Position numbers and translations under genes: made by a program. The notes below the pieces were generated by a model. The model made no database searches, was not told where the DNA came from, and was given only the letters and a program-made list of their open reading frames with translations. Shown one piece after another: positions 28,901 through 49,047 of a stretch of DNA of 64,000 nt (the first letter of the stretch is position 1; each line of letters opens with the position of its first letter). Location of the stretch: NCBI RefSeq assembly GCF_022378355.1, contig NZ_JAKMAJ010000011.1, positions 62,001 through 126,000 on the forward strand. Reading direction: 5' to 3'. This DNA is from Brenneria bubanii. GTDB taxonomy: Bacteria > Pseudomonadota > Gammaproteobacteria > Enterobacterales > Enterobacteriaceae.

Positions 28901-29809
28901 TCACAGCCGGGTGCGCTGCGCCTTGGAGGAGGAACGCAGCAGGTCGCGTATCGCGCGAATCAAGACTTCCTTGCTGCGCCCGCGGCGAAAGATCAGTGAA
29001 AACGGCGCCTGATAGCCATAGTCGGTCGGCAACAGCGCGCGCAGTCGCCGCCGCTGCACCCAGGGCAGCGCATAATGCTCAGGCAAATAGCCGATATATT
29101 TTCCCGACAGGATCAACAGCAGCTGCGCCTCCATGCTTTCCACGGTGGCGGTGCTGTGCTTGAAACCCCGTTTGCCCAAATCCGACGAACGCCAGTAGCT
29201 GCGCGTCACCATTCGCATCTGGGCGACATGCGCCGCTTCGGGATGCGCCACTGCAAACAGCTCGTGCTGGTCGCTGCAATACAGCCAATGCTGTTCACGA
29301 TATAACGGATGAGCGATCACGCTGTTGCCCTGTAGCGGGAAATTACCGACCGCCACATCCAGCTCATTGTCCAGAATATCTTGCAGCAGCACATGCGGGC
29401 TTTTGATTTGCAGATTGATATGCACCAAAGGAAAACGGTCGCTGAAGCGCCCGATAGCGTCGGCGATGGAGAGCACCGGATCGGTAGCCGTAGCGTCAAG
29501 CACGCCGAGGCGCAAAATACCGCCCTGTTCTCCCTGGAGCGTGGCGCTGTAGCGATCGAAGTTTTCCAGATTATTCATTAAAGACAGCGTCTGCTGTAAA
29601 AAGGCTTCGCCTTTGAGCGTCAGCGCGAACCCTCCCCGGCCGCGTTGACAAAGTACGAATCCCAGTTTCTCTTCCAATTCGCTCATGTAGTTGCTGATGG
29701 CGGAAATCGTCAGGTTGAGTTCCTGCTGGGCGCGGGCGAACCCCTGATGTTTCGCCACAATGGTGAAAATATGCAGCAAGCGCAGATTAGGCAGTTTTCC
29801 AATCGACAT
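28901..29809 (-). CDS. LysR-type transcriptional regulator of the guanidino island
   Basis: The 302-residue protein has the LysR winged helix-turn-helix at residues about 10-65 (QGFARAQQELNLTISAISNY) and a periplasmic-binding-like effector domain. It is divergent from the ureohydrolase gene, with 160 bp between, the classic LysR arrangement, so it probably activates that gene and perhaps the transporter genes in response to a guanidino compound or a product. GpuR and GbuR of Pseudomonas are LysR-type regulators beside comparable ureohydrolase genes. The effector is not known here. Confidence 0.85.
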   Translation of the reverse strand: MSIGKLPNLRLLHIFTIVAKHQGFARAQQELNLTISAISNYMSELEEKLGFVLCQRGRGGFALTLKGEAFLQQTLSLMNNLENFDRYSATLQGEQGGILRLGVLDATATDPVLSIADAIGRFSDRFPLVHINLQIKSPHVLLQDILDNELDVAVGNFPLQGNSVIAHPLYREQHWLYCSDQHELFAVAHPEAAHVAQMRMVTRSYWRSSDLGKRGFKHSTATVESMEAQLLLILSGKYIGYLPEHYALPWVQRRRLRALLPTDYGYQAPFSLIFRRGRSKEVLIRAIRDLLRSSSKAQRTRL

Positions 29810-29838
29810 CGTATTGTTTCCACATGGAAGAGGGACAA

Positions 29839-29862
29839 TTAGTTTTCAAATTACTGAACTGA
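29839..29862 (+). promoter_or_regulatory. Candidate LysR-type binding site
   Basis: TTAGTT and AACTGA form an interrupted dyad with a 12-nt centre in the divergent region between the LysR gene and the ureohydrolase gene, 107 bp before the latter's start. It resembles the general T-N11-A type of LysR recognition site. It was found by eye only. Confidence 0.35.
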
Positions 29863-29969
29863 TTTTTTGTATTCTGCTATTTTTCCCCGCCCGTCGTCTA
29901 CCGCACTATTTTCCCACTAATCCGTAGCCGGTGCGTACCCGGCCGCAGTCGACATGGGAAACAGTGACA

Positions 29970-30920
29970 ATGGAAAAACAGTACCAGCAACCCCAGGGCG
30001 GCAACGAGATGCCGCGTTTCGCCGGACGCGCCACCATGATGCGTCTGCCATACAGCGACGGTCCGCAAGGTCTGGATGCCGCCTTTATCGGCATTCCGCT
30101 GGATATCGGCGCGTCCCAGCGCGCCGGCACCCGCTACGGGCCGCGTCATATCCGCAGTGAATCCGTGATGATCCGTCCCTATAACATGGCGACCGGCGCC
30201 GCGCCGTTCGACTCGCTGCAGGTGGGCGATCTGGGCGATGTGCCGATCAATACCTACAGCCTGCTGAAATCGGTGGATATCATTGAGGACTACTACACCG
30301 CGCTCAACGACTGGCCGCTGATCCCGCTGACGCTGGGCGGCGACCATACCATCACCCTGCCGATCCTGCGCGCATTGACGAAGAAGCATGGTCCGGTCGG
30401 CCTGATCCACGTCGACGCCCATACGGATACCAACGATGAGATGTTCGGCGAAAAAATCGCCCACGGCACCACCTTTCGCCGGGCGGTGGAGGAAGGTCTG
30501 CTGGACTGCCGGCGCGTGGTGCAAATCGGTCAGCGGGCGCAGGGCTATACCAGCGAAGATTTCCAGTGGGGCGTCGATCAGGGCTTTCATCTGATTCCGG
30601 TGGAACAGTGCTGGCACCGCAGCCTGACGCCGTTGATGGCGGAAGTGCGCGCGCGGATGGGCGATGGTCCGGTATATCTTTCGTACGATATCGACAGCCT
30701 CGATCCAGCCTGGGCGCCCGGCACCGGAACGCCGGAAGTGGGCGGATTGACCTCGGTGCAGGGGCTGGAGATTGTACGCGGCTGCCAGGGGCTCAATCTG
30801 GTGGGCTGCGATCTGGTGGAAGTCTCTCCGCCCTACGACATCAGCGGCATGACCGCCCAGATGGGCGCCAACCTGCTGTATGAAATGCTGTGCGTGCTGC
30901 CGGGCGTAGCGCAACGATGA
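29970..30920 (+). CDS. Ureohydrolase, guanidinobutyrase-like
   Basis: The 316-residue protein is a manganese (or nickel) ureohydrolase of the agmatinase/arginase fold. Metal ligands are visible: His126 in LGGDHT, Asp149, His151 and Asp153 in HVDAHTD, and Asp240 and Asp242 in SYDIDSLDPAWAPGTGTPE. The N-terminal GGNEMPRFAGRATMMRLP and the SVMIRPYNMATGAAPFDSL block resemble Pseudomonas guanidinobutyrase GbuA more than E. coli agmatinase SpeB, as I remember them. The reaction would yield urea and an amine or amino acid such as 4-aminobutyrate. ATG 29970 has GGGA about 10 nt upstream. Its neighbours, an NCS1 permease, an ABC importer and urease, suggest a pathway that uses the urea. Agmatine, guanidinopropionate or free guanidine remain possible substrates. 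Confidence 0.85.
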   Translation: MEKQYQQPQGGNEMPRFAGRATMMRLPYSDGPQGLDAAFIGIPLDIGASQRAGTRYGPRHIRSESVMIRPYNMATGAAPFDSLQVGDLGDVPINTYSLLKSVDIIEDYYTALNDWPLIPLTLGGDHTITLPILRALTKKHGPVGLIHVDAHTDTNDEMFGEKIAHGTTFRRAVEEGLLDCRRVVQIGQRAQGYTSEDFQWGVDQGFHLIPVEQCWHRSLTPLMAEVRARMGDGPVYLSYDIDSLDPAWAPGTGTPEVGGLTSVQGLEIVRGCQGLNLVGCDLVEVSPPYDISGMTAQMGANLLYEMLCVLPGVAQR

Positions 30921-31044
30921 GCGCGGCGTCAGGGCGGCGGACAGAAACGCGGCCCTGACGACCACAAGCGCCTGCCGGCCCGTCACAGAAATCAGCCGTC
31001 CGTCACGCGGTACGACGCGGATCTTGAAGCTATAAGAGGCGATT

Positions 31045-32514
31045 ATGTCACCTTCCCCTATGACCATTGAAACCTTCGGCATCGAGCAGATACCCGACGA
31101 TCGGCGCGATGCTTCGCCGCTGGATCTTTTCCGTCTCACCTTCGGCGGCGCCAATACTTTCGCCACGTCGGTGCTGGGCAGTTTTCCTATTCTCTTCGGA
31201 CTCTCTTTTCAGGCCGGTTTCCTGGCGATAGTCATCGGCGTCGTCGTCGGCGCGTTGATCCTGGCGCCGATGGGCATATTCGGCGCGCTCAACGGCACCA
31301 ATAACGCCGTGTCCTCCGGCGCCCATTTTGGCGTTCATGGCCGCATTGTGGGGTCTTTCCTATCGCTCCTGACGGCGGTGGCGTTTTTCTCTCTATCGGT
31401 CTGGAGTTCAGGCGATGCCCTGATCGGCGGCGCCCACCGCCTGCTGGGCCTTGCGGAAAACAACTTCACGCTCGGCCTGGCCTACGCCATGTTCGCCATA
31501 CTGGTTCTGATTGTGTGTATCTACGGTTTTCGCTTCATGCTGTGGGTCAACAAAATCGCCGTCTTCGCCTCCAGCCTGATGTTCCTGCTTGGCGTATTCG
31601 CATTCAGCGGCTCGTTTGATCCCGGGTTTGCAGGCCGTCTGACACTGGGCGAGGCCGGATTCTGGGCCGCGTTCATCGGCGCGATACTCCTGACCATGAG
31701 CAACCCAATCTCCTTCGGCGCCTTTTTGGGAGACTGGTCGCGCTATATCCCGCGGCGCACCCCCAAGTTCCGCATCATGACGGCGGTATTCGCCGCGCAG
31801 CTAGCCACGCTGATCCCGTTCCTATTCGGGCTGTGTACGGCATCGGTGGTGGCAACCTATGCGCCGCAGTATGTGGCGGACAACAACTACGTCGGCGGCT
31901 TGCTGGCCGTCTCTCCGACCTGGTTCTTTCTGCCGGTATGCCTGATCGCCATCATTGGCGGCATGTCCACCGGCACCACCGCGCTCTACGGCACCGGACT
32001 CGACATGTCCAGCATATTCCCACGCCTGCTCAGTCGCGCCCGGGCGACGATCCTCATCGGCATAGCCGCAATCGCCTTCATCTTCATCGGCCGCTTTGGC
32101 TTTAACCTGGTGCAAAGCGTCTCCACTTTCGCGGTGCTGATCGTCACCTGTACCTCGCCCTGGATAGTCATCATGATCATCGGGCTCATCGTACGTCGGG
32201 GCTTCTACCACGCGGATGATCTGCAGGTGTTTACGCGCGGCCAGCGCGGCGGCCGCTACTGGTTTCACCATGGCTGGAACTGGCGCGGAATCGGCGCCTG
32301 GATCCCCAGCGCGCTCGCCGGATTGTGTCTGGTCAATATTCCGGGCCAGTTCGTCGGTCCGTTTGGCGACGTCGCCGGCGGTATCGACGTCAGTCTGCCG
32401 GTCACGCTCGGCCTGACGTCACTGCTCTATCTGACATTATTACGCGCATTTCCAGAGCCTTCGACCGTATACGGTCCTGACGATTTACGCCCGCCGACCG
32501 GCGTAAAATGGTGA
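31045..32514 (+). CDS. NCS1-family permease (cytosine/purine/hydantoin type)
   Basis: The 489-residue protein has about twelve membrane segments and the NCS1 look: an N-terminal cytoplasmic start before LFRLTFGGANTFATSVLGSF, and polar helix motifs such as ALNGTNNAVSSGAHFGVHG and MSNPISFGAFLGDWSRY. The family imports nucleobases and related compounds by sodium or proton symport. AAGAGG lies before the ATG. It follows the ureohydrolase by 124 bp in the same direction, so the likely cargo is the guanidino substrate of that enzyme, which would be a departure from nucleobases. The assignment of cargo is inferred. Confidence 0.85.
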   Translation: MSPSPMTIETFGIEQIPDDRRDASPLDLFRLTFGGANTFATSVLGSFPILFGLSFQAGFLAIVIGVVVGALILAPMGIFGALNGTNNAVSSGAHFGVHGRIVGSFLSLLTAVAFFSLSVWSSGDALIGGAHRLLGLAENNFTLGLAYAMFAILVLIVCIYGFRFMLWVNKIAVFASSLMFLLGVFAFSGSFDPGFAGRLTLGEAGFWAAFIGAILLTMSNPISFGAFLGDWSRYIPRRTPKFRIMTAVFAAQLATLIPFLFGLCTASVVATYAPQYVADNNYVGGLLAVSPTWFFLPVCLIAIIGGMSTGTTALYGTGLDMSSIFPRLLSRARATILIGIAAIAFIFIGRFGFNLVQSVSTFAVLIVTCTSPWIVIMIIGLIVRRGFYHADDLQVFTRGQRGGRYWFHHGWNWRGIGAWIPSALAGLCLVNIPGQFVGPFGDVAGGIDVSLPVTLGLTSLLYLTLLRAFPEPSTVYGPDDLRPPTGVKW

Positions 32515-32566
32515 ATAGTAACGACATCAAACAGCGACATATTTCTTAACTCTCGGGAGCAACGCC

Positions 32567-33400
32567 ATGAAATCATCCATTATTCTGCGCCGACTGCGCG
32601 CAGCCGTTCTGTTATCACTGACGCTGGGCGCAAGCGCCCTGTCGTCATCCCACGCCGCAACCGTCCCCCCTACGCTGGCGCCGGGCGTGTTCAAAGTCGG
32701 CATCGAGGTCGCCTATCCGCCGTTCGAATCCTGGCAGAACGGGCAGGTCGTCGGGTTTGATGCCGAGCTGGCCGCCCTGCTCAGTAAACACCTCGGCGCC
32801 AAGCTGGCGCTCGCCGATACGCAATTTTCCGGTCTGATCCTCGGGCTGAACGCCGCCAAACACGACGCGGTGATTTCCGCCCTGTATGTTACCGCCGACC
32901 GCACCGCGCAGGCGGACGCCATTCCTTACGCCGATACCGGCGCCTACATTCTGGCGCGCAGCGACAGCAAGGTTATCCCGCAGGATGAAAAAGCGCTGTG
33001 CGGTCTGACTGTCGGCCTGCAGCAGGGATCCGTATGGGTGAAACAGCTACGGCAACTCGCCGCCGATTACTGCCAGCCCAACGGCAAGCAGACCATCACC
33101 GTCAAAGAATACCCCACCGCGCCGGAAACCTTGCAGGCGCTGCTGGCGGGCCACATTCAGGCTCAGGTGGAGATGGCCGGCGCGGCGCGGATGTTCGCCG
33201 AGCGCAGCCGCAGACGGGCAACCATAGCGTCGCCGCAGATCATCTACCCGCAGACGCTTGGCATCTACGTGAAAAAAGGCAACCAGGCGCTGTTGAACGA
33301 ACTGCAAGCGGCGCTGCAAAAGGTCCGCGACAACGGCGAATATGCGGCACTGCTGGAAAAATACCGGCCTTACGGCATTACCGACACCGCCGCGCGCTAA
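32567..33400 (+). CDS. Amino-acid type ABC transporter substrate-binding protein
   Basis: The 277-residue product has a signal peptide ending near SSSHA (about residue 30) and the family 3 solute-binding fold (VGIEVAYPPFESWQNGQVVGFDAELA). Such proteins bind polar amino acids or opines in the periplasm. It precedes the fused permease/ATPase gene and follows the NCS1 gene by 52 bp, so the three probably work in uptake of related nitrogen compounds. The ligand cannot be read from the sequence. Confidence 0.88.
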   Translation: MKSSIILRRLRAAVLLSLTLGASALSSSHAATVPPTLAPGVFKVGIEVAYPPFESWQNGQVVGFDAELAALLSKHLGAKLALADTQFSGLILGLNAAKHDAVISALYVTADRTAQADAIPYADTGAYILARSDSKVIPQDEKALCGLTVGLQQGSVWVKQLRQLAADYCQPNGKQTITVKEYPTAPETLQALLAGHIQAQVEMAGAARMFAERSRRRATIASPQIIYPQTLGIYVKKGNQALLNELQAALQKVRDNGEYAALLEKYRPYGITDTAAR

Positions 33401-33430
33401 CAGACGGCATCCGATCTCATACGCTAATAC

Positions 33431-33544
33431 ATTCAAGCTGCAGGACAAAACGCATCACGTATTGAACAGCGTTTACGGCGGCATAACGGGGCGAGGTCCA
33501 TGGAAGGACCTGGCAACAAAGCCAACGCACAAGCAACTTGAAGT
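33431..33544. repeat. Decayed palindromic intergenic repeat
   Basis: Between the binding-protein and permease genes, TTCAAGCTGC at 33432-33441 is inverted as GCAACTTGAA at 33533-33542, and an inner hairpin AGGTCC/GGACCT lies at 33494-33511. I remember similar elements, ending in CAACTTGAAGT, as common intergenic repeats in Pectobacteriaceae. A related half-copy is at 50445-50575. Confidence 0.5.
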
Positions 33545-33582
33545 TTGACGAGCTTATTCGCTCAGGGAGTGGTACTACCGCC

Positions 33583-35115
33583 ATGATTTTCGACTGGACC
33601 TACTTTTTTTCTCTGTTCTCAATGCGGGCGTTCTGGCAAGCCAGCATCACCGTGGTAGAGCTGAGCATCCTGTCCTGGCTCATCAGCCTGATGCTCGGCT
33701 TCATCGTCGCCAGCGCCCGCCAGTCCGGCCCCATTTGGCTGCGCGGCGCATGTCAGGCCTATATCTGGCTATTTCGCAGCGTGCCGCTGCTGGTGCTGGT
33801 GGTGTTCGTCTACAACCTGCCGCAGATGCTGCCGGCGACCGGCGTGGTGCTCGGCAACGCGTTTTTCGCCGGGCTGCTGGCCACCGTACTGGTGGAAACC
33901 GCCTATATGTCCGAAATTCACCGCGGCGGCTTGCTCTCGGTGGCGAAAGGACAGCATGAAGCCGGACATGCGCTCGGCATTCGCTTTCTCGGCGTGCAGC
34001 GTCTGGTGGTGATCCCGCAGGCGTGGCGAATTTCGCTGCCGGCGCTGGTCAACGAATTCGTCACCATCGTCAAGCAGACCTCGCTGGTGTCGGTCATCTC
34101 CCTACCGGAACTGCTAATGACCGGCCAGCGCCTGTATGCGGAAAATTTTCTGGTGATGGAGACGCTGGCTGCGGTGGCGGTGTACTACATTCTGATCGTC
34201 TCTCTGTTCACCCTGCTGTTTCAGTGGCTGGAGCGGCGGGTGAACATTCAGACCCGCACGCCGGGTACGCTGGCGGAGAGCGAACTGGCCGCACTGCGGC
34301 GGCAGGCGAACGCGCCGGTATTCCGTCAGCCGACGGCGCGTCCCGGCGAGCCTAACGCGCTGCTGATAAAAAATATTCATAAGGCTTACGGCCGCCATCA
34401 GGTACTTAAAGACATTACGCTGACGGTTGCGCCCGGCGAAGCGATCAGCATCATCGGGCCGTCAGGATCGGGCAAAACATCGCTGATCCGCACCGTCAAC
34501 GGACTGGAGAGTCTCGATCGGGGCGAAATCATTCTGTTCGGCGAAACGTTTATCGTCGCGGGCGGTCCAAAGGAGAGCGGCACCCTGCGGCAAGGCATCC
34601 GACGCGTCGGCATGGTGTTTCAGAACTTCAATCTGTTTCCCCACTACAGCATTCTGCAAAACGTGATGCTGGCGCCGCGTTACCACGCTCAACCCGACGA
34701 TGCCGTCACGCGGCGCTCGCAAGCCCTTTACCTGCTGGATAAAGTCGGATTGCTGGCCCATGCGGAAAAATACCCGCATCAGTTGTCCGGCGGACAGCAG
34801 CAACGCGTGGCGATCGCCCGCGCGCTGGCGCTATCGCCGGACATCATGCTGTTTGATGAGCCCACCTCGGCGCTCGATCCGGAACTGGTGAGCGACGTGC
34901 TGAAAGTCATTGACGCGCTGGCGCGGGAAGGCATGACGATGCTGATCGTCACTCACGAGATGGAATTCGCGCTGGCGATTTCCGATCGGGTGGTGCTGAT
35001 GGAGCATGGAAATATACAGGCGGACGCGTCTCCGGCGGCAATCCGCGCAGGCGGACAGGATCCGGCGCTGCGGCGCATCCGGCAGTTCATGGGGTTAGAC
35101 GACGCGGCGCGTTGA
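33583..35115 (+). CDS. ABC transporter with fused permease and ATPase domains
   Basis: One 510-residue chain contains a HisM/GlnP-type permease (residues about 1-225, five helices, with the EAGHALGIRFLG coupling loop) and an ATPase (about 265-510) with Walker A GPSGSGKTS, signature LSGGQQQR, Walker B IMLFDEP and the switch His in IVTHEM. Polar amino acid transporters usually have these as separate proteins. As the chain dimerises it would make a complete importer with the binding protein 183 bp upstream. The ATG at 33583 is preferred, although its GGGAG is rather far (about 14 nt); an in-frame TTG at 33538 lies in the repeat. Confidence 0.85.
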   Translation: MIFDWTYFFSLFSMRAFWQASITVVELSILSWLISLMLGFIVASARQSGPIWLRGACQAYIWLFRSVPLLVLVVFVYNLPQMLPATGVVLGNAFFAGLLATVLVETAYMSEIHRGGLLSVAKGQHEAGHALGIRFLGVQRLVVIPQAWRISLPALVNEFVTIVKQTSLVSVISLPELLMTGQRLYAENFLVMETLAAVAVYYILIVSLFTLLFQWLERRVNIQTRTPGTLAESELAALRRQANAPVFRQPTARPGEPNALLIKNIHKAYGRHQVLKDITLTVAPGEAISIIGPSGSGKTSLIRTVNGLESLDRGEIILFGETFIVAGGPKESGTLRQGIRRVGMVFQNFNLFPHYSILQNVMLAPRYHAQPDDAVTRRSQALYLLDKVGLLAHAEKYPHQLSGGQQQRVAIARALALSPDIMLFDEPTSALDPELVSDVLKVIDALAREGMTMLIVTHEMEFALAISDRVVLMEHGNIQADASPAAIRAGGQDPALRRIRQFMGLDDAAR

Positions 35116-35220
35116 CCGCAGGCGACATGGCTGGTTAAATCATAAGAAAAAAATATTACTGTTCGTTTATCCCGCCATGTCAAATAGATAGCGGTATTTT
35201 AAGCAAACGAGCGTATCGAC

Positions 35221-36063
35221 ATGGTTAGCAGCGACAACGGTAATGCGGTCACAGGGGATGAAACATCGGCAGGCTGGCGCGCGTCGCTTTACCTCGGGTT
35301 GCGCCGCCATTCGGCGCGAACCCTGGTCGCCGAGCGCCGCCATAGCGGGCCGCTGCTGATTCAGCGGCCGTTTTATCCCGAAGGCGAAACCTGCCACGTC
35401 TACCTGCTGCATCCGCCGGGCGGCGTGGTGGGCGGCGACCGGCTCAGCACGGAGATCCGCCTGGAGCAGGATGCGCGGGCGCTGATCACGACGCCGGGCG
35501 CCACCAAGTTTTATCGCAGCGCGGGCGAAACTTCGCACCTACAGCAAAGGTTTCATCTGGCGCCTGGCAGTTGCCTTGAATGGCTGCCGCAGGACACGAT
35601 CGTGTTCCCCGCAGCCAAAGCGCGGGTCGACACCTGCTTTTACCTTGAGGACGATGCCCGGCTCATCGCCTGGGAAACCCTCTGCCTCGGCCGCCCGGTT
35701 ATGCGGGAACGCTTCTCCAGCGGTGAACTGAAAACGCGGCTGCGCGTACTGCGCAACGGCGAGCTGATACTGCACGAAGCGCTGCGGATTCTCGACGGCG
35801 ACCTCGACTGTATCGCCGACTACGCCCTGACCGGCACCATGATAATGACCCCCGCCGGACCGGAAACGCTGGAGAAAGCGCGCCAGTTGCTGGCTTTCAG
35901 CGCCACGCCCGCCGGGGCCACGCTGCTGGACGGGTTGCTGATCGTCAGAATGCTGGCCGGCGACAACCGGCAGATGCAAGCTCTCCAGCAAGCGCTTTGG
36001 TTCGGTCTGCGCAGCGATATCATCGGTATACCGCCGCTGCCGCCGAGAATATGGTCTACGTAA
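35221..36063 (+). CDS. ureD: Urease accessory protein UreD
   Basis: UreD (UreH) binds apo-urease and, with UreF and UreG, conducts nickel into the active site. The 280-residue length is typical, and the conserved blocks RPFYPEG, HPPGGVVGGD, TTPGATKFYRS and LPQDTIVF are visible. It is the first gene of the urease operon, 105 bp after the ABC transporter gene in the same direction, so transcription from the transporter could continue into it. Confidence 0.94.
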   Translation: MVSSDNGNAVTGDETSAGWRASLYLGLRRHSARTLVAERRHSGPLLIQRPFYPEGETCHVYLLHPPGGVVGGDRLSTEIRLEQDARALITTPGATKFYRSAGETSHLQQRFHLAPGSCLEWLPQDTIVFPAAKARVDTCFYLEDDARLIAWETLCLGRPVMRERFSSGELKTRLRVLRNGELILHEALRILDGDLDCIADYALTGTMIMTPAGPETLEKARQLLAFSATPAGATLLDGLLIVRMLAGDNRQMQALQQALWFGLRSDIIGIPPLPPRIWST

Positions 36064-36075
36064 AAGGATACAATT

Positions 36076-36378
36076 TTGGAACTCACCCCCAGAGAGAAAG
36101 ACAAGCTGCTGCTGTTTACCGCGGGTTTGGTGGCCGAGCGCCGGTTGGCGCGCGGTCTGCGCCTCAATTATCCGGAAGCGGTGGCGCTGATCGGCTCAGC
36201 CATCATGGAGGGCGCGCGCGATGGAAAAAGCGTGGCCGAACTGATGGAGTTCGGCAGGCATATTCTTCGGCGCGATCAGGTGATGGACGGCATCGCCGAA
36301 CTGATCACCGACGTACAGGTGGAGGCCACCTTTCCGGACGGCACCAAACTCGTCACCGTACACAATCCAATTGAGTGA
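36076..36378 (+). CDS. ureA: Urease subunit gamma UreA
   Basis: The 100-residue gamma subunit starts with TTG at 36076, preceded by AAGGA 7 nt upstream, and reads [14 protein letters not shown] as in Klebsiella UreA. No other start is possible, so the rare TTG codon is probably used. The family signature [18 protein letters not shown] is present at the end. UreA forms the (alpha-beta-gamma)3 urease with UreB and UreC in the cytoplasm. It lies 12 bp after ureD and 7 bp before ureB. Confidence 0.96.
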
Positions 36379-36385
36379 GGCGCAC

Positions 36386-36709
36386 ATGATCCCTGGGGAA
36401 ATACAGGTCGCCGACGGCCGTATCGAGTTGAATTCGGGGCGCGAGCGCATCAGCATCGTGGTGGAAAATCACGGCGATCGGCCGATCCAGATCGGCTCGC
36501 ACTACCATTTTTATGAGGTCAATCCCGCGCTGGTATTCGATCGCGACGCCTCGCGCGGCTACCGGCTGGATATCGCGGCCGGCACCGCCGTGCGGTTCGA
36601 ACCGGGTCAGGCGCGGGAAGTGACGCTGGTGGCGTTGGCCGGCCGGCGTCGGGTGTTTGGCCTGCGCGGAGAGGTGATGGGCAAACTGGATGGACAAAAC
36701 GATGACTAG
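36386..36709 (+). CDS. ureB: Urease subunit beta UreB
   Basis: The 107-residue beta subunit begins MIPGEIQV at the ATG 36386, with GTGAGG just upstream; an in-frame TTG at 36371 inside the ureA end is rejected. [16 protein letters not shown] and the [17 protein letters not shown] block are the usual UreB hallmarks. Its stop at 36707-36709 overlaps the ureC start, which indicates translational coupling. Confidence 0.96.
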
Positions 36710-40674: not shown

Positions 40675-42393
40675 ATGATCAATCAGGTTGATTTGATTCT
40701 TTCTTTACTGCAACAGATGTGCGTTTATCTGGTCATCGCTTATCTATTGAGTAAAACCCCTTTATTCATTCCGCTGATGCAGGTCACCATCCGCTTACCC
40801 CACAAGCTGGTGTGTTATCTGGTTTTTTCCGTGTTCTGCATCATGGGTACCTATTTCGGCCTGCATATCGATGACTCCATTGCCAATACCCGCGCTACCG
40901 GCGCCGTATTAGGCGGTATGCTGGGCGGCCCCTCGGTCGGTTTTCTCGTCGGCCTGACCGGCGGGCTGCATCGTTATTCGATGGGCGGCATGACGGCGCT
41001 GGCCTGTATGCTGTCGACTATCGCCGAAGGTCTGCTGGGCGGCTTGCTGCACCGCTATCTGACGCGGCGCAACCGTATCGATCTGCTGTTTCAGCCCCTG
41101 GTGGTCGGTTTAACCGCGCTGGTGGCCGAAATTCTGCAGATGGTCATTATTCTGCTGGTTGCCCGACCGTTTGATAACGCCATCGCGCTGGTGAGAGATA
41201 TCGCCCTGCCGATGATGATCACCAATACCATTGGCTCCGCCATGTTTATGCGTATTTTGCTCGACAGGCGCGCCATTTTTGAGAAATACACCTCGGCCTT
41301 TTCCGCCAAGGCGCTGAAAATCGCCGCCCGCGCCGAAGGTACGCTGCGCCAGGGTTTCAACCAGCAGAACAGCATGCGCGTCGCCCGTATCCTGTATGAG
41401 GAGCTGGGCGTCGGCGCCGTCGCGATTACCGACCGGGAGAAATTACTGGCGTTTATCGGCCTGGGCGACGATCACCACACCGTCGACTCCCCTATCACCT
41501 CCCGCCACACCCATCGGGCGATAGAGAAAAATCAGGTGGTGTACGCCGACGGCAATGAAATGCCTTACACCTGCTCCATTTCCCCCAACTGTAAGCTGGG
41601 CTCAACGCTGGTGATCCCACTGCGAGGCGAAGAGCAACGCGTCATCGGCACCATTAAGCTGTACGAGCCCAAGAACAAGCTGTTTTCCAGCATCAACCGG
41701 ACGCTGGGAGAAGGGATAGCCCACCTGCTTTCCGCCCAGATTCTGGCCGGGCGTTTCGAACGGCAGAAACAGCTGCTGGTACAGTCGGAAATCAAACTGT
41801 TGCATGCCCAGGTTAACCCTCATTTCCTGTTTAACGCGCTGAATACCTTATCCGCCGTGATACGCCGCAACCCCGATCATGCTCGTCAACTGGTGCTGTC
41901 GCTGTCGACCTTTTTTCGCAAAAACCTCAAGCGCAGTAATGATGAGGTATCGCTGAGCGACGAGTTGGAACATGTGAACGCCTATCTGGAAATTGAGAAA
42001 GCGCGTTTCGCCGATCACCTGACGGTGGATATCACGCTGCCGGACCAACTGCTGGAAGCGCGCTTGCCGGCATTTTCTCTGCAACCCATTGTGGAAAACG
42101 CCATCAAACACGGTATCTCACAGATGCTCGACGTCGGTCACGTTCATATCAGCGGACGTTTGCACGCCAATACCCTGGAACTGACGGTAGAAGACAACGC
42201 CGGCATGTATCAACCGCCCAGCGGCGGAGATGGTTTGGGGATGAATCTGGTGGATCGGCGCATCAAGGCCCGCTACGGTACGCACTTTGGTATTACTGTG
42301 ATTTGCGAAGCGGACAGCTTTACCCGGGTAGAGGTCCGCGTTCCCTTTATTTCACCCAAAAAGCCGCTCAACGATCGGCATCAGGCGGCTTAG
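40675..42393 (+). CDS. btsS: Sensor histidine kinase BtsS (YehU), without adjacent BtsR
   Basis: BtsS is the high-affinity extracellular pyruvate sensor of the LytS family. The 572-residue protein has five or six membrane helices (5TMR-LYT domain, about residues 1-200), a GAF domain (about 225-355) and a kinase domain with the phospho-accepting His in AQVNPHFLFNALNTL and an ATP-binding GLGMNLVDRR. The match with E. coli BtsS runs through the whole length. ATG 40675 is chosen by this match, with AAGGCG upstream. In E. coli btsR follows directly; here no response regulator gene is adjacent, so the partner must be elsewhere or lost. Confidence 0.93.
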   Translation: MINQVDLILSLLQQMCVYLVIAYLLSKTPLFIPLMQVTIRLPHKLVCYLVFSVFCIMGTYFGLHIDDSIANTRATGAVLGGMLGGPSVGFLVGLTGGLHRYSMGGMTALACMLSTIAEGLLGGLLHRYLTRRNRIDLLFQPLVVGLTALVAEILQMVIILLVARPFDNAIALVRDIALPMMITNTIGSAMFMRILLDRRAIFEKYTSAFSAKALKIAARAEGTLRQGFNQQNSMRVARILYEELGVGAVAITDREKLLAFIGLGDDHHTVDSPITSRHTHRAIEKNQVVYADGNEMPYTCSISPNCKLGSTLVIPLRGEEQRVIGTIKLYEPKNKLFSSINRTLGEGIAHLLSAQILAGRFERQKQLLVQSEIKLLHAQVNPHFLFNALNTLSAVIRRNPDHARQLVLSLSTFFRKNLKRSNDEVSLSDELEHVNAYLEIEKARFADHLTVDITLPDQLLEARLPAFSLQPIVENAIKHGISQMLDVGHVHISGRLHANTLELTVEDNAGMYQPPSGGDGLGMNLVDRRIKARYGTHFGITVICEADSFTRVEVRVPFISPKKPLNDRHQAA

Positions 42394-42546: not shown

Positions 42547-43131
42547 ATGTCCTCTATCGACATAAAGCTCACCAAACCTATCGGTATTTTTATCATTATC
42601 GAACGTTTGTATGCCCGCGATGGGTTAGCGCCGTCAATCGGTGAATTAGGCCCTTCATTGACGCAAATACACCGGACCGTTATACAGTTAAGAAGAAAGC
42701 AAGACATGTATATGGACGGCGCCAAATTAGCCCCCAGAGATATCAGCTTATGGCAACGCATTAAATATCTCACCGGATCCGTCGTCACCACCAAAGACAC
42801 CGATGAACTCGTTTATACGCCAGAGTTTATGGGGTCTCTGTTAGCGGCAACACCGCTTGCCAATGTCGACTACAAAAATATTCCCCGCTTTTTAACCACC
42901 GAAGGCATCTATTCCTTACCTAAAGTGATGGCGTTCGGCCGGGATCCTATTCCCGACGTGCTGCTGTATGGCAAAAGCAATACGACCTTTTTCGTCGACG
43001 ACGGCGGCAGAGGAACGCCAACGGCCATCGCAAAATATAATCAACGGACAAAAGATCTGATGATGATCAATAATCAGTCGGATGTCGCCAACATCATGAA
43101 AGACCTGATAGCGAAAGAGGTCAAATTATGA
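42547..43131 (+). CDS. Uncharacterised protein, first gene of a three-gene set
   Basis: The 194-residue product has no signal peptide or clear membrane segment. Its N-terminus (IFIIIERLYARDGLAPSIGE, then LTQIHRTVIQLRRKQD) could form a winged helix, and the middle reads like an alpha/beta domain (IPDVLLYGKSNTTFFVDDGG). I do not recognise a family. Its stop overlaps the next ATG by four bases (ATGA), so it is coupled to a membrane protein gene. It is less GC-rich than the island around it. Confidence 0.6.
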   Translation: MSSIDIKLTKPIGIFIIIERLYARDGLAPSIGELGPSLTQIHRTVIQLRRKQDMYMDGAKLAPRDISLWQRIKYLTGSVVTTKDTDELVYTPEFMGSLLAATPLANVDYKNIPRFLTTEGIYSLPKVMAFGRDPIPDVLLYGKSNTTFFVDDGGRGTPTAIAKYNQRTKDLMMINNQSDVANIMKDLIAKEVKL

Positions 43132-43610
43132 AGACGGGAGTTAAGGTTTCTGGCATCCTATTACTCGTCATCCTTTCTTTCCTGCTAGGTTTAAATACCT
43201 ATTATCCTTATTTATCCTGGTACTTCGGTACAGATTCGCTTTCAGTTTCCAGCGTAAACGCCATGATGCTTAACGACTTGATCAACGGCGCGCTATTTGC
43301 ACTATCCGGCATCGTTATTTTCATTATGAGCACTAAATTCAAGAAAACGCCGTTGCCGACGATTAAAGCGCTGTTTACCTTTATCATTGTGCAGTTGGTG
43401 GTGAACTTCCTATTATTCAGCGCGTTTATTGGTTTGCATAAGGTTTATAACCAGTTTTATTACAGCGACCTGCATAATATCGATATTACAAATATATATT
43501 TTGTCATCGAGATAATATCAAGTGCGATTATCAGCATTATTTTTATGAGCGTATTTTATGATAAGCTTTTTTATAAAAACCATAAAAATGGGATATGTAA
43601 GAGCGTTTGA
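43128..43610 (+). CDS. Small four-helix membrane protein of unknown function
   Basis: The 160-residue protein has four hydrophobic stretches (about residues 7-25, 45-68, 78-102 and 122-147) and a basic C-terminus. It overlaps the preceding gene by four bases, so the soluble protein and the membrane protein are probably made together. No family is recognised. Confidence 0.6.
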   Translation: MKTGVKVSGILLLVILSFLLGLNTYYPYLSWYFGTDSLSVSSVNAMMLNDLINGALFALSGIVIFIMSTKFKKTPLPTIKALFTFIIVQLVVNFLLFSAFIGLHKVYNQFYYSDLHNIDITNIYFVIEIISSAIISIIFMSVFYDKLFYKNHKNGICKSV

Positions 43611-43875
43611 CTGTTCTGGATGCGACAGTAAACTGCAATACTTCTGTATTCTATCGTTCCAGCTGTGCTGGTTTTTGTTTTATCTGTGGATCCCATATCG
43701 TAGCGATTATGCGATCCTTATTTTCCTGATCTTCTTTTTGCCCGTAATCTCCAGCAACACCAGGTGTATCAACCACGCTGGGTACTCTCGCGCCTGGTGT
43801 TTTGTATGGCTTATAGCCCCGTATATCATGCTGCTTCTGCCTTTCTTCTTAAAGAGAAAGGGGGCAACGGGGTAA
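43588..43875 (+). CDS. DUF805-like small membrane protein
   Basis: From the ATG at 43588 the frame gives 95 residues with three hydrophobic helices and a C-terminal pattern TRCINHAGYSRAWCFVWLIA that recalls the R-x-H-D-x-G-x-S-x-W motif of DUF805 (YhaH-like) proteins. It overlaps the end of the previous gene by 23 bp in another frame. An earlier ATG at 43558 is possible. The function is unknown. It is convergent with nikC. Confidence 0.5.
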   Translation: MGYVRAFDCSGCDSKLQYFCILSFQLCWFLFYLWIPYRSDYAILIFLIFFLPVISSNTRCINHAGYSRAWCFVWLIAPYIMLLLPFFLKRKGATG

Positions 43876-44045: not shown

Positions 44046-44879
44046 TTAGTTTTTACCATCTCCGCCCAAGACATCGCGCAGAAAATCGCCCAGATAGTTA
44101 AACGCCGCCACCACCAGCACAATGGCTATGCCGGCGGGCAGCATCTGCTCCGGATGTACCATCAGGATGTTTTTCGCTTCGCCCAGCATCGCGCCCCACT
44201 CCGGAGTGGGCGGCTGCACGCCAAGTCCGATAAAAGACAGTGCCGATAGCAGCAGAATCAGCGCGCCGCTGTCGGTAGTGGCCAGCACCGCCATTTCCGC
44301 GGCGCTCACCGGCAGCAGATGCCGCAGGATGATATAAGTCGGCTTGGCGCCGATCAGCCTGGCGTAATGAATGTAGTGCCGATCGCTATATTGCAGCACG
44401 ATGCCGCGAATCATCCGGGCATACCAGGCCCACTTCACCAGCAGCACCGCCAGTATGATATTGCCCAGTCCCGGCCCCAGAATGCCGACCAAAGCAAAAA
44501 TCATCACTTCGCTGGGAAACGACAGCATCACATCGCACATGCGCATTAATACGGCGTCGACGCGACCGCGGAAATACCCCGCCAGCATGCCGATCAGCAT
44601 ACCGAACGCCAGCGTGACCGCCATCGCCAACAGCGAGACAAACACCGTGGTGCGAATGCCGTACAACAGACGGGAAAACAGGCAACGCCCCAGATGGTCG
44701 GCGCCCAGCGGATAATCCATGCCGATGGCGTGATATTTATCGCGCCACGAAACCAGCAGCGGATCATGCGGCGCAATCCAGGGCGCCAGCAACCCGGCCA
44801 GCAGCACCAATGCCAGAAAACACAGGCACCACAGCGCCAGTCGGTCCTGTTTCAGACGCAGCCAGAAGTGCCGGCTCAT
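44046..44879 (-). CDS. nikC: Nickel ABC transporter permease NikC
   Basis: The 277-residue protein is a Dpp/Opp-type inner-membrane permease with an N-terminal helix and five further helices, the ADHLGRCLFSRLLYGIRTT entry and the EAA-type loop (YARLIGAKPTYIILRHLLP). Length and sequence match NikC. ATG 44879 overlaps the nikB stop by four bases (ATGA). In E. coli nikD and nikE, the ATPases, follow; here nothing on this strand follows, and the next genes face the other way, so the transporter lacks local ATPases. Confidence 0.88.
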   Translation of the reverse strand: MSRHFWLRLKQDRLALWCLCFLALVLLAGLLAPWIAPHDPLLVSWRDKYHAIGMDYPLGADHLGRCLFSRLLYGIRTTVFVSLLAMAVTLAFGMLIGMLAGYFRGRVDAVLMRMCDVMLSFPSEVMIFALVGILGPGLGNIILAVLLVKWAWYARMIRGIVLQYSDRHYIHYARLIGAKPTYIILRHLLPVSAAEMAVLATTDSGALILLLSALSFIGLGVQPPTPEWGAMLGEAKNILMVHPEQMLPAGIAIVLVVAAFNYLGDFLRDVLGGDGKN

Positions 44880-45814
44880 ACGGCGATACCGCGCCGCAAA
44901 CGGGGATCCAGCCACATCTGCAATAGATCGATGATGAAATTCATCGAGACGAACAGCAGCGCCATTAGCAGGACATAAGCCTGGATCACCGGATAATCAC
45001 GGTTAAAAATCGCCGTCACGCACAGCCGTCCCAAGCCGGGCCAGGAGAAAATGTTTTCGATAATCAGCGTACCGGCAATCAGGCGGGGAATGCTCATGCC
45101 CAGCGCCACCAGCGGCGAATAGAGGGCGTTGATCAGCACATGCCGCCAGAGGATACGCCGGGCGCTCAGGCCGCGCGCCTGCGCATAGGCGACGTAGGGC
45201 TGGCCAAGCTGGCCAAGCATATTGCTGCGCAACAGGCGAACATAGGTGCCGAGATAACCCAGCGCCAGGGTTAATGCGGGTAATATCACCGCGCCCGGCG
45301 CCTGCATACCGCCGACGGGCAGCCAACCCAGTTTGACCGACAGCAGCCAAATCAGCAGCAGGCCCAGCCAATAATTCGGCATCGCGGTAAGTAGGAAAAG
45401 CAAGGTACGCAACCATTTATCCAGCCAGCGGTCATGGGTTGCCACACAAAGCATGGCGAATGACAGCGACCCCAGCAAAATCATGCCAAACGCGCTGGCG
45501 GCCAGCCGCAACGTGGCGGGCAAGGCCGTCATTAGCGCCTGCCACACGCTGGTTCGGCTGACGTACGAGTCGCCGAAATCCAGATGCAGGCAACGTTGCA
45601 GCCAGGAAAGGTATTGGCGCCAGAATGGCAGGTCCAACCCCAGCTCATGACGCATCGCCGTGACGGCCTCGTCGGTCGGCACGACCATATTGACGCGCAG
45701 CGCCGCTTCGGCGGGATCGGACGGTGAAAGCCGGATCAGCGTAAAGGCGATCAGAGATATCGCCAGAATCAGTGGCATCATCAACAATAGCCGGCGAAAG
45801 CAATAGCGCGTCAT
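44876..45814 (-). CDS. nikB: Nickel ABC transporter permease NikB
   Basis: The 312-residue permease (E. coli 314) has six membrane helices and the family features LGLDLPFWRQYLSWLQ, the AMPNYWLGLLLIWL helix and the EAA-type loop YVAYAQARGLSARRILWRHV. It forms the channel with NikC. It lies 15 bp after nikA and overlaps nikC. Confidence 0.88.
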   Translation of the reverse strand: MTRYCFRRLLLMMPLILAISLIAFTLIRLSPSDPAEAALRVNMVVPTDEAVTAMRHELGLDLPFWRQYLSWLQRCLHLDFGDSYVSRTSVWQALMTALPATLRLAASAFGMILLGSLSFAMLCVATHDRWLDKWLRTLLFLLTAMPNYWLGLLLIWLLSVKLGWLPVGGMQAPGAVILPALTLALGYLGTYVRLLRSNMLGQLGQPYVAYAQARGLSARRILWRHVLINALYSPLVALGMSIPRLIAGTLIIENIFSWPGLGRLCVTAIFNRDYPVIQAYVLLMALLFVSMNFIIDLLQMWLDPRLRRGIAV

Positions 45815-45829
45815 CCGTTCTCCCGCCGC

Positions 45830-47443
45830 TTAACGCCAATACATTTTTTCAAAAGGGATCTCATACTGGGAAGGATTAAACGTCACGCCTTGCAGGTCGG
45901 CGCTGAAAACGGCCTTGGTGCGGGAATAGGTCAGCGGTATATAAAGCGCTTCCCGTGCCAACATCTCCCATATCTGTCGATACAGCGCCCGCCGCTGCGC
46001 CTCATCCGGGGTAATCAGCACCTGGCCAATCAGCGCATCCAGCTCAGCCTTGCCCGGCAAGCCTTTTTGTCCCTGGTAATCGGCATGCGCCGGGAGCCGA
46101 AACGAAGAAATATACGACTGCGGATCGTATGGCTTCCCCCAGGAAAACGAGTATTGCAGGTCGAAATCACCGGATTTCTGCCTGTCCAGATAAGCCTGTT
46201 TTTCCTCTCCGATAAGCACGACGTCCACGCCGACCTGCCGGAAATTGCTTTGAATCACTTCGGCGATGGCCCTTTCCCCGGCATTATTGGCGTTGTAAGA
46301 GAAGACCAGCCGCATCGGCTCGCCCTGCTTCTCGCGGATGGCGCGCCCGGCCGGGAGCCGCCAGCCCGCATCATCCAATAACGCTTGAGCCTTGGCCATG
46401 TCGTAGTGATAACGCACCGGTTCGGCAACGTCGGCATAAGGCAGGTTCGGCGCCAGCAGCGTATCCGCCACGCTTTCGCTGCCCGCCATCACGCCTTCGG
46501 CAATCGCCTGCTTATCCACCGCATACTGCAACGCGCGCCGAACCTGACGATCGGCGGTAATCGGCCGGCTGCTGTTCATCACCAGCGCGCGTGAGGCCAC
46601 CGGTTCGCTCACCGCCGTGTGAAACCGGCGATTCTTCTGTAATGCCGTAAAGCTATCGCCGTCCATCATGTCGCCGTCCGCGCCGAAAACCAGCTGAATA
46701 TCGCCTTTTTCCAGCGCCAGCAGCATGCTCTGACGCTCGGGGATTACATGCCAGATCACGCGCTCAATCCGCGGCGGCGTTCCCCAGTAGTGGGGGTTGG
46801 CGCTAAACCCGGCGTACTGATTTTTCACATATTCCGTCAATAGCCACGGCCCGGTTCCGGCATAGGCGCTGACGCCGTTTCGGGTTTGACCGTCAATAAA
46901 ATCCTTCGGCGAGATGAAGCGGAAAGGCCGGGTTAGGCCAAGCTCCACCAGCGTGGGGTAATAGGGGTTTTTCAGATTGAGGGCGACGGTATACTCATCC
47001 ACCACCTCGACGTTATCGATCTGTTGAACCAGCTCAAGCCAGGCATGGCGCTGATAATTCGCCAGTACCGCCGCGATATTCAGCTTAACCGCCCCGGCAT
47101 TAAATTTTTCGCCATCGCTGAAGCTCACGTCATGACGCAGATGAAAGAGATAACGCTTACCATCCGGCGAAACGTCCCAACTTTGCGCCAGCCAGGGCCG
47201 CACTCCCTGCTCGGTATTAATCACCAGCGGCTCAAACACCATATTCTGCGCGGCCATCTCACCGCTATAGAGGTGGGGATTGATATCGCGGATATCTTTG
47301 GTGCTGGCGTAGTTTAATCGCGCACGGCCGGCGCTGGTTTCCGCCGCCAGTCCGCTCGAGGTCGCCGTCACGGTCATCGCCAGGCATAAAACCGGAAGAT
47401 AGCGGAAAAACCGCGGCGTCCGCGCTGTTTTGATGGTCGGCAT
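45830..47443 (-). CDS. nikA: Nickel-binding periplasmic protein NikA
   Basis: The 537-residue protein starts with a signal peptide (cleavage near SSGLAA, residue 34) and has the Dpp/NikA fold: INPHLYSGEMAAQNMVFEPL, NYQRHAWLELVQQIDNVEVV and GTGPWLL follow E. coli NikA closely. NikA binds nickel as a chelate, in E. coli with histidine, and passes it to NikBC. GGGGAG lies just before the ATG, and the methyltransferase gene ends 14 bp upstream. Nickel specificity is supported by NikR and urease nearby, though peptide or other chelate cargo cannot be excluded. Confidence 0.88.
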   Translation of the reverse strand: MPTIKTARTPRFFRYLPVLCLAMTVTATSSGLAAETSAGRARLNYASTKDIRDINPHLYSGEMAAQNMVFEPLVINTEQGVRPWLAQSWDVSPDGKRYLFHLRHDVSFSDGEKFNAGAVKLNIAAVLANYQRHAWLELVQQIDNVEVVDEYTVALNLKNPYYPTLVELGLTRPFRFISPKDFIDGQTRNGVSAYAGTGPWLLTEYVKNQYAGFSANPHYWGTPPRIERVIWHVIPERQSMLLALEKGDIQLVFGADGDMMDGDSFTALQKNRRFHTAVSEPVASRALVMNSSRPITADRQVRRALQYAVDKQAIAEGVMAGSESVADTLLAPNLPYADVAEPVRYHYDMAKAQALLDDAGWRLPAGRAIREKQGEPMRLVFSYNANNAGERAIAEVIQSNFRQVGVDVVLIGEEKQAYLDRQKSGDFDLQYSFSWGKPYDPQSYISSFRLPAHADYQGQKGLPGKAELDALIGQVLITPDEAQRRALYRQIWEMLAREALYIPLTYSRTKAVFSADLQGVTFNPSQYEIPFEKMYWR

Positions 47444-47457
47444 ATCTCCCCCGATGG

Positions 47458-48237
47458 CTACTTTTCCGCACAGATCAAAAACATCGGCGTCGAGGCGTAA
47501 TTCACCTTTTCGGTTTCATCCCACAGTTCATCGCCGACACGGATATCCAGCGAGACCTTACGGTATCCGCATTTCAGCAGCGCCTGCGTGTCCCACTGCG
47601 GGCGACGCTCACGGCTGAGCGGCAGCTGGCGAGCGATGTTTTCCATCGCGCTGGTATCGGTATTGACGTAGTGATCGTCCAGCCCCAGATAGCGGGCGTT
47701 CGCCCGATCTTCCAGATAGCCGAGGTGGCTTTGCTCATCAAACAGTTGCAGATACCAGTTGGCGTCAAAGTTAATCAGCCGTCCGCCGGGAGCCAGCACC
47801 CGATACCAGTCTTCATAGGCCGATTGCGGCGCATCCAGATTCCAGGTCACATTGCGCGTTACAATCAGGTCGAAGCTTTCATCCGCAAACGGCAATGAAT
47901 GCACGTCGGATAATACGAAATTCACCTCGACGCCATAGCGCGCCGCATTGCCGCGCGCCTGATCCAGCATCGCCTGCGTGATATCGACGGCCGTTACCTG
48001 ATGTCCGGCCATCGCCAGCGTGACGGCGAAGAAGCCCGGCCCGCTGCCGATATCCAGCACCTTCAATACCGTTTTTGACGGGGCGTATTGGTTGATTTTT
48101 TTCAACCATGCGGCACGCTTGGCATTGGCCAATTCGGTGGCATTCAGTTGGCTGTAGCTGACGGCGCGGGTTGTCCAGTAGCACTGCACGTCACGCAATA
48201 ACTCACGGCTTTCATTTTCGACAAGGCATTGGCTCAC
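47458..48237 (-). CDS. SAM-dependent methyltransferase leading the nik operon
   Basis: The 259-residue protein is a class I methyltransferase: motif I VLDIGSGPGFFAV near residue 62, the acidic ribose-binding AVDITQ, motif LPFADESFDLIVTRNVTWNL and a C-terminal substrate domain. It resembles UbiE-type enzymes but no substrate can be named. GTG 48237 has AGGA about 9 nt upstream. It is 14 bp before nikA and follows a NikR operator, so it should be made when nickel is short. Its product might be a modified ligand that chelates nickel for NikA, or it might modify the carrier; both are conjecture. Confidence 0.8.
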   Translation of the reverse strand: MSQCLVENESRELLRDVQCYWTTRAVSYSQLNATELANAKRAAWLKKINQYAPSKTVLKVLDIGSGPGFFAVTLAMAGHQVTAVDITQAMLDQARGNAARYGVEVNFVLSDVHSLPFADESFDLIVTRNVTWNLDAPQSAYEDWYRVLAPGGRLINFDANWYLQLFDEQSHLGYLEDRANARYLGLDDHYVNTDTSAMENIARQLPLSRERRPQWDTQALLKCGYRKVSLDIRVGDELWDETEKVNYASTPMFLICAEK

Positions 48238-48315
48238 GCGGATCTATCCTGTAAAAGCGTTCAGGCCGGCGGTACCCTCGCGCCGCGCCGGTGGTGAACG
48301 CGAAAGAAATGCTTT

Positions 48316-48432
48316 CGCAAAGCGACGTTGAAAATCGCTCCTGGCGATTTTTTATCGCGGGCTATCCCTGCCCGCTCCCCATAGGGCCGTCGCAAAGCGA
48401 CGTTGAAAATCGCTCCTGGCGATTTTTTTATC
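48316..48432 (-). repeat. Tandem structured repeat in the nik-operon leader
   Basis: Two nearly identical 41-bp copies, 48316-48356 and 48391-48432, lie 75 bp apart. Read on the minus strand toward the methyltransferase gene, each forms a hairpin of AAAATCGC and GCGATTTT around the loop CAGGA, then CGTCGC-TTT-GCGACG; between copies is GCGGGC-AGGGATA-GCCCGC. The apical loops carry GGA. The same architecture, with changed stems, lies before rhtB at 59954-60059. Confidence 0.75.
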
Positions 48433-48473
48433 TTCGACTTATAGCATAGGGAATTGATGAATTTAACCGCAGA

Positions 48474-48500
48474 GTATGAACTTTATAAAAAAAATCATAC
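48474..48500 (-). promoter_or_regulatory. NikR operator of the methyltransferase-nikABC operon
   Basis: GTATGA at 48474-48479 and TCATAC at 48495-48500 are exact half-sites of the enteric NikR operator as I remember it (GTATGA-N16-TCATAC), here with a 15-nt centre containing a run of eight A. The site is about 237 bp before the methyltransferase start and between nikR and that gene. Nickel-loaded NikR would repress the operon. Confidence 0.8.
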
Positions 48501-48648
48501 TTTTTTGATCCGGCTTAACTTAGGCCGCAAAGCGAACCAGGGGGTTATCCTCCGCTCCGGAGGCGAAGCGCCCCTCTTTTCACGGACGTGACGCTCATCG
48601 CGCCGCCGTCAGCTCGCGCGAAGGCGCATTTATACCGACATTAAAAAG

Positions 48649-49047
48649 TCACAATGGAATAAGATTCAACCTGCCGTGGCGCACGCCGGTTTGCGCCATG
48701 ACGGACTCGGCAAAACGTTCAACCTGCAGCGTGGTGCCGCGCAGGATAATGGTTTCCACGCACTCCTCATGGCTCAAATGCGTATGCATGGTGGAGACCG
48801 TTAAATCGTGATGTTCATGCTGCATATCGGCCAGCCGGCTGGAAAGCTGACGCTCATGATGATCGTAGACATAGCTCAGCACCGCCACGCACACGCCATC
48901 CTTATCCGTCTCCAGCGTCATCTCACCGAGATCACGGCGCAGCATATCGCGAAACGCCTCTGAACGATTGGCATAGCCTTTGCTCCGCATCAGTTCATCA
49001 AAGCTCTGCGCCAGTTGATCATCCATTGAAATCGTCAGTCTTTGCAC
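48649..49047 (-). CDS. nikR: Nickel-responsive regulator NikR
   Basis: NikR is a ribbon-helix-helix repressor that binds DNA when loaded with nickel. From a GTG at 49047, with GAGG a few bases upstream, the protein has 132 residues: the ribbon-helix-helix domain (VQRLTISMDDQLAQSFDELM) and an ACT-type metal domain with the four nickel ligands His77, His88, His90 and Cys96, each one position beyond the E. coli numbers. An ATG 15 codons upstream is rejected. It lies upstream of the nik operon in the same direction, unlike E. coli where it follows nikE. Confidence 0.95.
   Translation of the reverse strand: MQRLTISMDDQLAQSFDELMRSKGYANRSEAFRDMLRRDLGEMTLETDKDGVCVAVLSYVYDHHERQLSSRLADMQHEHHDLTVSTMHTHLSHEECVETIILRGTTLQVERFAESVMAQTGVRHGRLNLIPL

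Follow-up and report, generated by a model that had tools for sequence, protein, structure and literature searches.

Does a run of genes for guanidino-compound breakdown, urease and nickel uptake that lies between glgB and asd form one island, or is it composed of parts with different histories? The question is raised by a contig of Brenneria bubanii (NZ_JAKMAJ010000011.1), of which a window of 64,000 nucleotides was analysed; positions given below are those of the window. The two flanking genes, which we take to adjoin in E. coli, are here separated by about 20 kb. From left to right the interval begins with glgB and a LysR-type regulator gene on the minus strand, continues on the plus strand with gbuA, an NCS1 permease gene, a gene for a periplasmic binding protein (SBP), a permease-ATPase fusion gene, ureD, A, B, C, E, F and G, a gene for a LytS-type histidine kinase (hereafter lytS) and three open reading frames (ORFs), and ends on the minus strand with nikC, nikB, nikA, an S-adenosylmethionine (SAM) methyltransferase gene, nikR and asd. 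A first-pass annotation had described a single nitrogen-scavenging island, in which a guanidino compound is converted to urea and urea to ammonia, with the nickel system feeding the urease. The genes that it named are all found about where it placed them (matches to TIGR, NF and Pfam models), including a correctly named nikABC and a complete urease set of structural (ureABC) and accessory (ureDEFG) genes; the kinase gene, the three ORFs and the methyltransferase gene had been omitted. The reading favoured here, in which we have fair confidence, is that positions 28901–40261 constitute one guanidino-acid-to-ammonia catabolic unit, situated beside an older and eroding nickel operon.

Two modules can be distinguished in the interval. 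The first (28901–40261) comprises the LysR regulator, the guanidinobutyrase, the NCS1 permease, the amino-acid ABC importer and ureDABCEFG, and lies between glgB and lytS; the second (44046–49047) comprises nikR, the methyltransferase gene and nikABC, and lies between lytS and asd. In relatives lacking the first module glgB and lytS are adjacent (lytS directly behind glgB in genomes G003, G004, G005 and G007), and in those lacking the second lytS and asd are adjacent (G003, G005 and G006), so lytS (40597–42393, plus strand; 598 amino acids; Pfam 5TM-5TMR_LYT and His_kinase) is a backbone gene outside both modules that splits the interval. Two stretches are incomplete: the contig of G006 begins just before lytS, and that of G009 begins about 5 kb from nikR, with no lytS found there. 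Urease is present in four of the ten genomes of the genus (the window, G001, G002 and G008), and in all four the order LysR-gbuA-(NCS1)-SBP-ABC-ure between glgB and lytS is identical, except that NCS1 is missing from the G001 copy. In Brenneria alni (G004), LysR-gbuA-SBP-ABC is found on another contig and urease is absent.

The history of the two modules was compared through synonymous divergence (dS, Nei-Gojobori) in the six pairs among the four urease genomes. The backbone set consisted of glgX, glgB, lytS, asd and yhgN, the set for the first module (the block) of eight genes and that for the nik module of five; ncs1 (missing in G001), gntR (no value in G008), ureA, ureB and ureE are outside these sets. 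Mean dS of the block is 0.36, 0.32, 0.34, 0.29, 0.26 and 0.20 over the six pairs, against 0.69, 0.57, 0.56, 0.59, 0.56 and 0.30 for the backbone and 0.71, 0.52, 0.48, 0.62, 0.63 and 0.29 for the nik module in the same order. With genes treated as independent in the rank tests, the block lies below the backbone in all six pairs (p 0.0008–0.014) and below the nik module (p 0.0008–0.028), and nik and backbone do not differ (p at least 0.46). Within the block, no pair shows a difference above 0.09 between the gbu and ure halves. Since block dS is low and alike in both halves and nik dS is backbone-like, gbu and ure appear to travel together and nik does not; these sequence comparisons are most simply explained by movement of the block in one piece and vertical inheritance of the nik genes. 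Probably the whole unit passed between a few Brenneria species, or entered them, once these had diverged. The difference is not explained by GC content at third codon positions (0.69–0.77 in the block, 0.68–0.71 in the backbone genes), because nikC (0.73) and nikB (0.74) average above the block and the LysR gene (0.69) has low dS. Measured against B. alni, dS is 0.83–1.15 for the four genes in common and 0.42–0.84 for the five backbone genes, so the B. alni copy of these four was probably acquired separately. A plasmid search with the block matched 63 records, none of which covered most of it.

A single 20 kb island gained or lost as a whole is thereby rejected, with a backbone gene in its middle and modules that differ in distribution and in dS. 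The chain from guanidino-acid hydrolase to urease survives as a single gbu-ure unit, its order identical and its dS alike and low. Independent assortment of the parts, which the annotation had named as the observation that would speak against it, is seen with nik and with the gbuA of B. alni; among the four urease genomes, gbu and ure do not show it.

The identity of the first enzyme determines what this unit may degrade. Among ureohydrolases of known structure, the closest match of the protein encoded at 29970–30920 (plus strand) is GbuA of Pseudomonas aeruginosa (3NIO; 536 bits), followed by GpuA (324 bits), proclavaminate hydrolase (214 bits) and the three best agmatinases (185–199 bits); with GbuA, 229 of 316 aligned residues (72%) are identical. 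The protein retains M161 of GbuA, which we take to be a specificity residue. It also retains H129, D152, H154, D156 and D243 of 3NIO and the capping R72 (active-site residues as listed in the available text of PMC9772407). The agmatinase model TIGR01230 likewise passes its cut-off on this protein (201.5 versus 174.3 bits), so the family label alone would mislead. An enzyme of the guanidine-hydrolase or metformin-hydrolase type was considered and rejected, as the scores are 147 bits to 7ESR/7OI1 (a record titled Probable agmatinase 2, which we take to be the guanidine hydrolase GdmH) and at most 98 bits to metformin hydrolase; no guanidine riboswitch reaches the Rfam gathering score within the window. 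From close homology and the kept residues, the window enzyme would cut a guanidino acid to 4-aminobutyrate (GABA) and urea, and its substrate is most likely 4-guanidinobutyrate.

The true substrate may instead, though improbably, be another guanidino acid, for example taurocyamine or 3-guanidinopropionate, or else some plant compound that has never been assayed. According to the available parts of the respective papers, human AGMAT, 60% identical to GbuA, cuts both taurocyamine and guanidinobutyrate (PMC9772407), and Candida GBase acts on guanidinobutyrate and guanidinopropionate (PMC10833137); a second ureohydrolase beside the unit in G002 and G008 is also similarly near to GpuA (246 bits) and GbuA (239 bits). 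Against this stand the much greater proximity of the window enzyme to GbuA than to GpuA and the retention of R72 and M161. The second ureohydrolase belongs to about 7 kb of extra DNA between ureG and lytS in G002 (L041) and G008 (L043), which also holds genes for an ABC importer, a major facilitator superfamily protein and a LysR regulator; the names were given by eye, save those of the ATPase and the ureohydrolase, which rest on sequence matches. In these two genomes the guanidino gene set has thus expanded.

With 4-guanidinobutyrate as the favoured substrate, a complete route can be proposed. The LysR-type protein, encoded divergently from gbuA (28901–29809, minus strand; Pfam HTH_1 and LysR_substrate), would sense the substrate and switch on the divergent genes, all of which lie on the plus strand. 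The guanidino acid would be brought in by the NCS1-family permease (31045–32514; Pfam Transp_cyt_pur) and by the ABC importer, which consists of an amino-acid type SBP (32567–33400; SBP_bac_3) and a fused ABC permease and ATPase (33538–35115; BPD_transp_1 and ABC_tran within a single ORF). The urea released by GbuA would then be turned into ammonia and CO2 by a urease that, by homology, is formed by UreA (gamma subunit; 36076–36378, TIGR00193), UreB (beta; 36386–36709, TIGR00192) and UreC (alpha; 36690–38405, TIGR01792) and matured by UreD (35221–36063; Pfam UreD), UreE (38412–38879; NF009751), UreF (38931–39635; Pfam UreF) and UreG (39644–40261; TIGR00101), the TIGR and NF models all scoring above their cut-offs. 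GABA would pass to GABA transaminase, which scores above cut-off in all ten genomes of the genus.

How unusual this linkage is was assessed from both of its ends. On the gbuA side, the best 80 of at least 590 confirmed GbuA-type stretches were inspected with 10 kb flanks, at least 9 kb being available downstream in 75 of them; the three urease-bearing Brenneria relatives are not among these 80, and the collection may omit near records. A divergent LysR gene accompanies gbuA in 79 of the 80 loci, SBP and fused ABC genes lie downstream in 34 and NCS1 in 17. This is the arrangement of known gbuA loci in Pseudomonas, Enterobacterales and others, from which the window differs in having both transporter types, a combination found in none of the 80, and urease directly downstream of gbuA, again found in none. 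Urease genes occur near gbuA in a single locus (Marinomonas communis, about 9 kb away), and nikA in none. On the urease side, UreC is present in 143 of 398 genomes of the phylum. Eighty urease neighbourhoods were searched, about half of the places found and mostly the top-ranked ones, with flanks of 9 kb unless the contig ended sooner (as in six cases). A profile search for an arginase-family ORF is negative in all 80 even at E 10; the profile, trained on 30 GbuA loci, is positive in 80/80 GbuA loci, a control that covers close relatives only. In the same neighbourhoods nikA is absent (tblastn, 1e-20), and nikC and nikR are each found once.

No published description of a gbuA-urease unit was found in the literature searched, where most subscription journals were not covered. 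In the available text of PMC11410670, guanidine-using nitrifiers and two model organisms have urease apart from their riboswitch-controlled guanidine genes. The closest counterpart is the DmgH cluster of Aminobacter, where, in the accessible part of the report, a ureohydrolase is clustered with urease downstream, so that its urea gets used, and the authors treat the linkage as functional evidence (PMC11399263). That enzyme is a Ni-dependent one of two subunits, accompanied by HypA/HypB, whereas the window block has a single GbuA-type gene; no second ureohydrolase gene or hypA-like gene is found among its annotated ORFs. The gbu-ure unit is therefore a rare linkage, for which a precedent in kind is already published.

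The second module looks like a separate and older nickel operon, controlled by NikR, that has no ATPase genes of its own and is being eroded within the genus. All its genes lie on the minus strand and include those for the nickel-binding protein NikA (45830–47443; TIGR02294; 483 bits to the NikA of 4OER and 468 to that of E. coli) and the two permeases NikB (44876–45814; NF045469) and NikC (44046–44915; NF045473), together with the SAM methyltransferase gene (47458–48237; Pfam Methyltransf_11) between nikA and nikR (48649–49047; NF002815 and NikR_C), each TIGR or NF model being above its cut-off. The two ATPases NikD and NikE are not encoded in the locus, and no significant remnant of their genes is found between nikC and lytS in the window, G001, G002, G008, G004 or G007 (best E 0.22). 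In none of the ten genus genomes does a scored candidate reach the cut-off of the NikD model TIGR02770 (116–123 of 135–231 candidates per genome scored or matched), a cut-off that was passed in just 2 of 14 control genomes. NikD searches return many Opp/Dpp-type ATPases, the best 42–47% identical to the NikD of a relative; this holds for each of the ten genomes, whether or not it has nik genes. ATPases encoded elsewhere may drive NikABC. Five genomes have nikA. In the window and G001 the genes nikA, nikB and nikC look whole; G002 has nikA split over two frames and G008 has nikB split likewise, and in B. alni nikA and nikB are partial and nikC is unseen. G007 keeps nikR only, as does G009 as far as its contig extends.

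Regulation by NikR is suggested by a palindrome, GTATGA-N15-TCATAC (48474–48500, exact match, no strand assigned), in the gap between the methyltransferase gene and nikR of all five genomes keeping nik genes (the window, G001, G002, G008 and G004). The site was first seen by eye and then tested: a search for the N15 pattern with at most one mismatch gave 2 sites against 0.05 expected, and the 21 stretches scanned hold no other exact site and one single-mismatch site, inside asd. Compared with E. coli nikABCDE-nikR, the window shares NikA homology, NikR and the operator half-sites GTATGA/TCATAC, and differs in lacking nikDE, in the added methyltransferase gene and in an operator spacer of 15 rather than 16 (PMC7055735, available text); the N16 pattern with at most three mismatches gave 11 matches against 16.8 expected, nothing above chance.

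The closest relatives of the module, in G236, G082 and G300, carry two ABC ATPases behind nikC. In G082 and G300, small genomes of the same order that are probably Pasteurellaceae, methyltransferase-nikABC follows a urease; the methyltransferase and NikA are 57% and 62% identical to those of the window, and the arrangement differs in the urease itself (UreC 57–58% identical), in the absence of gbuA and in having the two ATPases. The SAM methyltransferase occurs in 5 of 295 genomes of the order. It adjoins nikA at all four NikA places of at least 62% identity (the window, G236, G082 and G300) and at none of 16 other NikA-type places (42–50%, 15 genomes), of which G291 alone has a copy elsewhere. 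It thus goes with one nickel-operon subgroup and might modify a nickel ligand; a methyltransferase or nickelophore tied to a NikA nickel transporter was not found in the literature searched.

Several observations count against reading the interval as one catabolic unit beside an older nickel operon. The dS values of genes are not independent; asd (0.25–0.50, and 0.43–0.50 in five pairs) is nearer to the block than the other backbone genes are, and nikC (0.33) and nikB (0.39) come close to the low values of the block in the pair of the window and G008. The dN/dS ratio of nikABC (0.14–0.25) is higher than that of nikR, glgB, lytS and asd (0.04–0.09) and resembles that of SBP and ureD (0.14–0.24), so nikABC is not freely decaying in all lineages. 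Urease and nik genes do lie together in G082 and G300, and 105 bp separate the ABC gene from ureD. Two further explanations were weighed.

One, which we consider very unlikely, is an integrated island: the guanidino-acid hydrolase and the urease would share one functional locus with a nickel importer controlled by NikR, and NikABC would draw on ATPases whose genes lie elsewhere. In its favour, the modules are physically close, the window and G001 have both retained nikABC and the NikR-like box, the genome encodes many Opp-type ATPases, and in G300 and G082 the genes directly behind urease are those for the methyltransferase, NikABC and two ABC ATPases; NikMNQO systems, too, often adjoin urease genes (PMC2667541, available text). 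Opposed to it are the backbone gene and the differing dS between the modules, the lack of nikDE, the frameshifts in two of the four urease genomes (G002 and G008) and the partial nik genes of B. alni, which has no urease. NicO-family transporters, found in seven of the ten genus genomes, the same seven that have nikR in the glgB-asd stretch, and [NiFe] hydrogenase, found in all ten, provide an alternative route and another user of nickel, so urease may obtain its nickel from elsewhere, and nikR may have further targets. The proposal that the nickel system feeds urease from the same locus is accordingly not borne out, and the nik module is at most a putative source of nickel for urease. As to the NicO genes themselves, DUF1007, NicO, two Fec-type binding proteins, an ATPase and FecCD form one cluster in G001 (L182:7202-13274), alike in order by eye in the genome of the window (L180), and this is a possible further nickel or cobalt route.

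The other explanation, that gbu and ure are chance neighbours and the urease serves external urea under its own regulation with gbuA merely upstream, is unlikely. It draws on the 105-bp gap, because of which a separate ure promoter is possible, and on gbuA without linked urease in 79 of the 80 loci and in B. alni. A promoter scan found 7 sites against 8.7 expected, no excess over shuffles, and a terminator scan 28 against 15.9, with no clear site picked. Identical strand and order in the four urease genomes, equal dS of the two halves, the rarity of the linkage elsewhere and the fact that one enzyme yields what the other consumes all oppose chance. For the catabolic unit preferred here, a stronger version can be put forward tentatively, at somewhat less than even chance: a transferable operon whose LysR protein, on sensing the guanidino acid, would also switch on urease, so that the inducer of urease would be the compound from which urea is made, in place of urea itself or nitrogen limitation.

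Other features of the window are as follows. GC content in 2 kb windows is 0.59–0.64 from about 29 to 41 kb; it delimits the block weakly on its own, since the right flank of the window has 0.53–0.62 and glgX-glgB reach 0.61. LytS-type kinase genes are kept between glgB and asd in the genus, and no response-regulator ORF was noticed beside the window copy. The three overlapping ORFs between lytS and nikC (42547–43875, plus strand) have no Pfam match and occur in the window and G008; small ORFs resembling a toxin-antitoxin pair (by eye) are found at this place in G001 and G002. The match of 5_ureB_sRNA (RF02514; 103 bits, 36854–37131, minus strand within ureC) was rejected as evidence of a small RNA and probably reflects urease coding similarity. 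RyhB small RNA (RF00057) lies at 53324–53391 on the minus strand. A region at 12000–16000 has GC of 0.38–0.41 and a longest ORF of at most 142 amino acids, between GlpG/rhomboid-like and GlpD-like genes (named by eye).

The gbu-ure unit would illustrate compactly how gene linkage can complete a pathway: in one clade the gene of the second enzyme is joined to that of the first, and unlinked relatives are available for comparison in the Klebsiella-type gbuA loci and in B. alni, which lacks urease. The separation of nik from gbu-ure shows that gene proximity alone can mislead. Induction of urease by a guanidino compound becomes directly testable, and this bears on the nitrogen compounds used by Brenneria.

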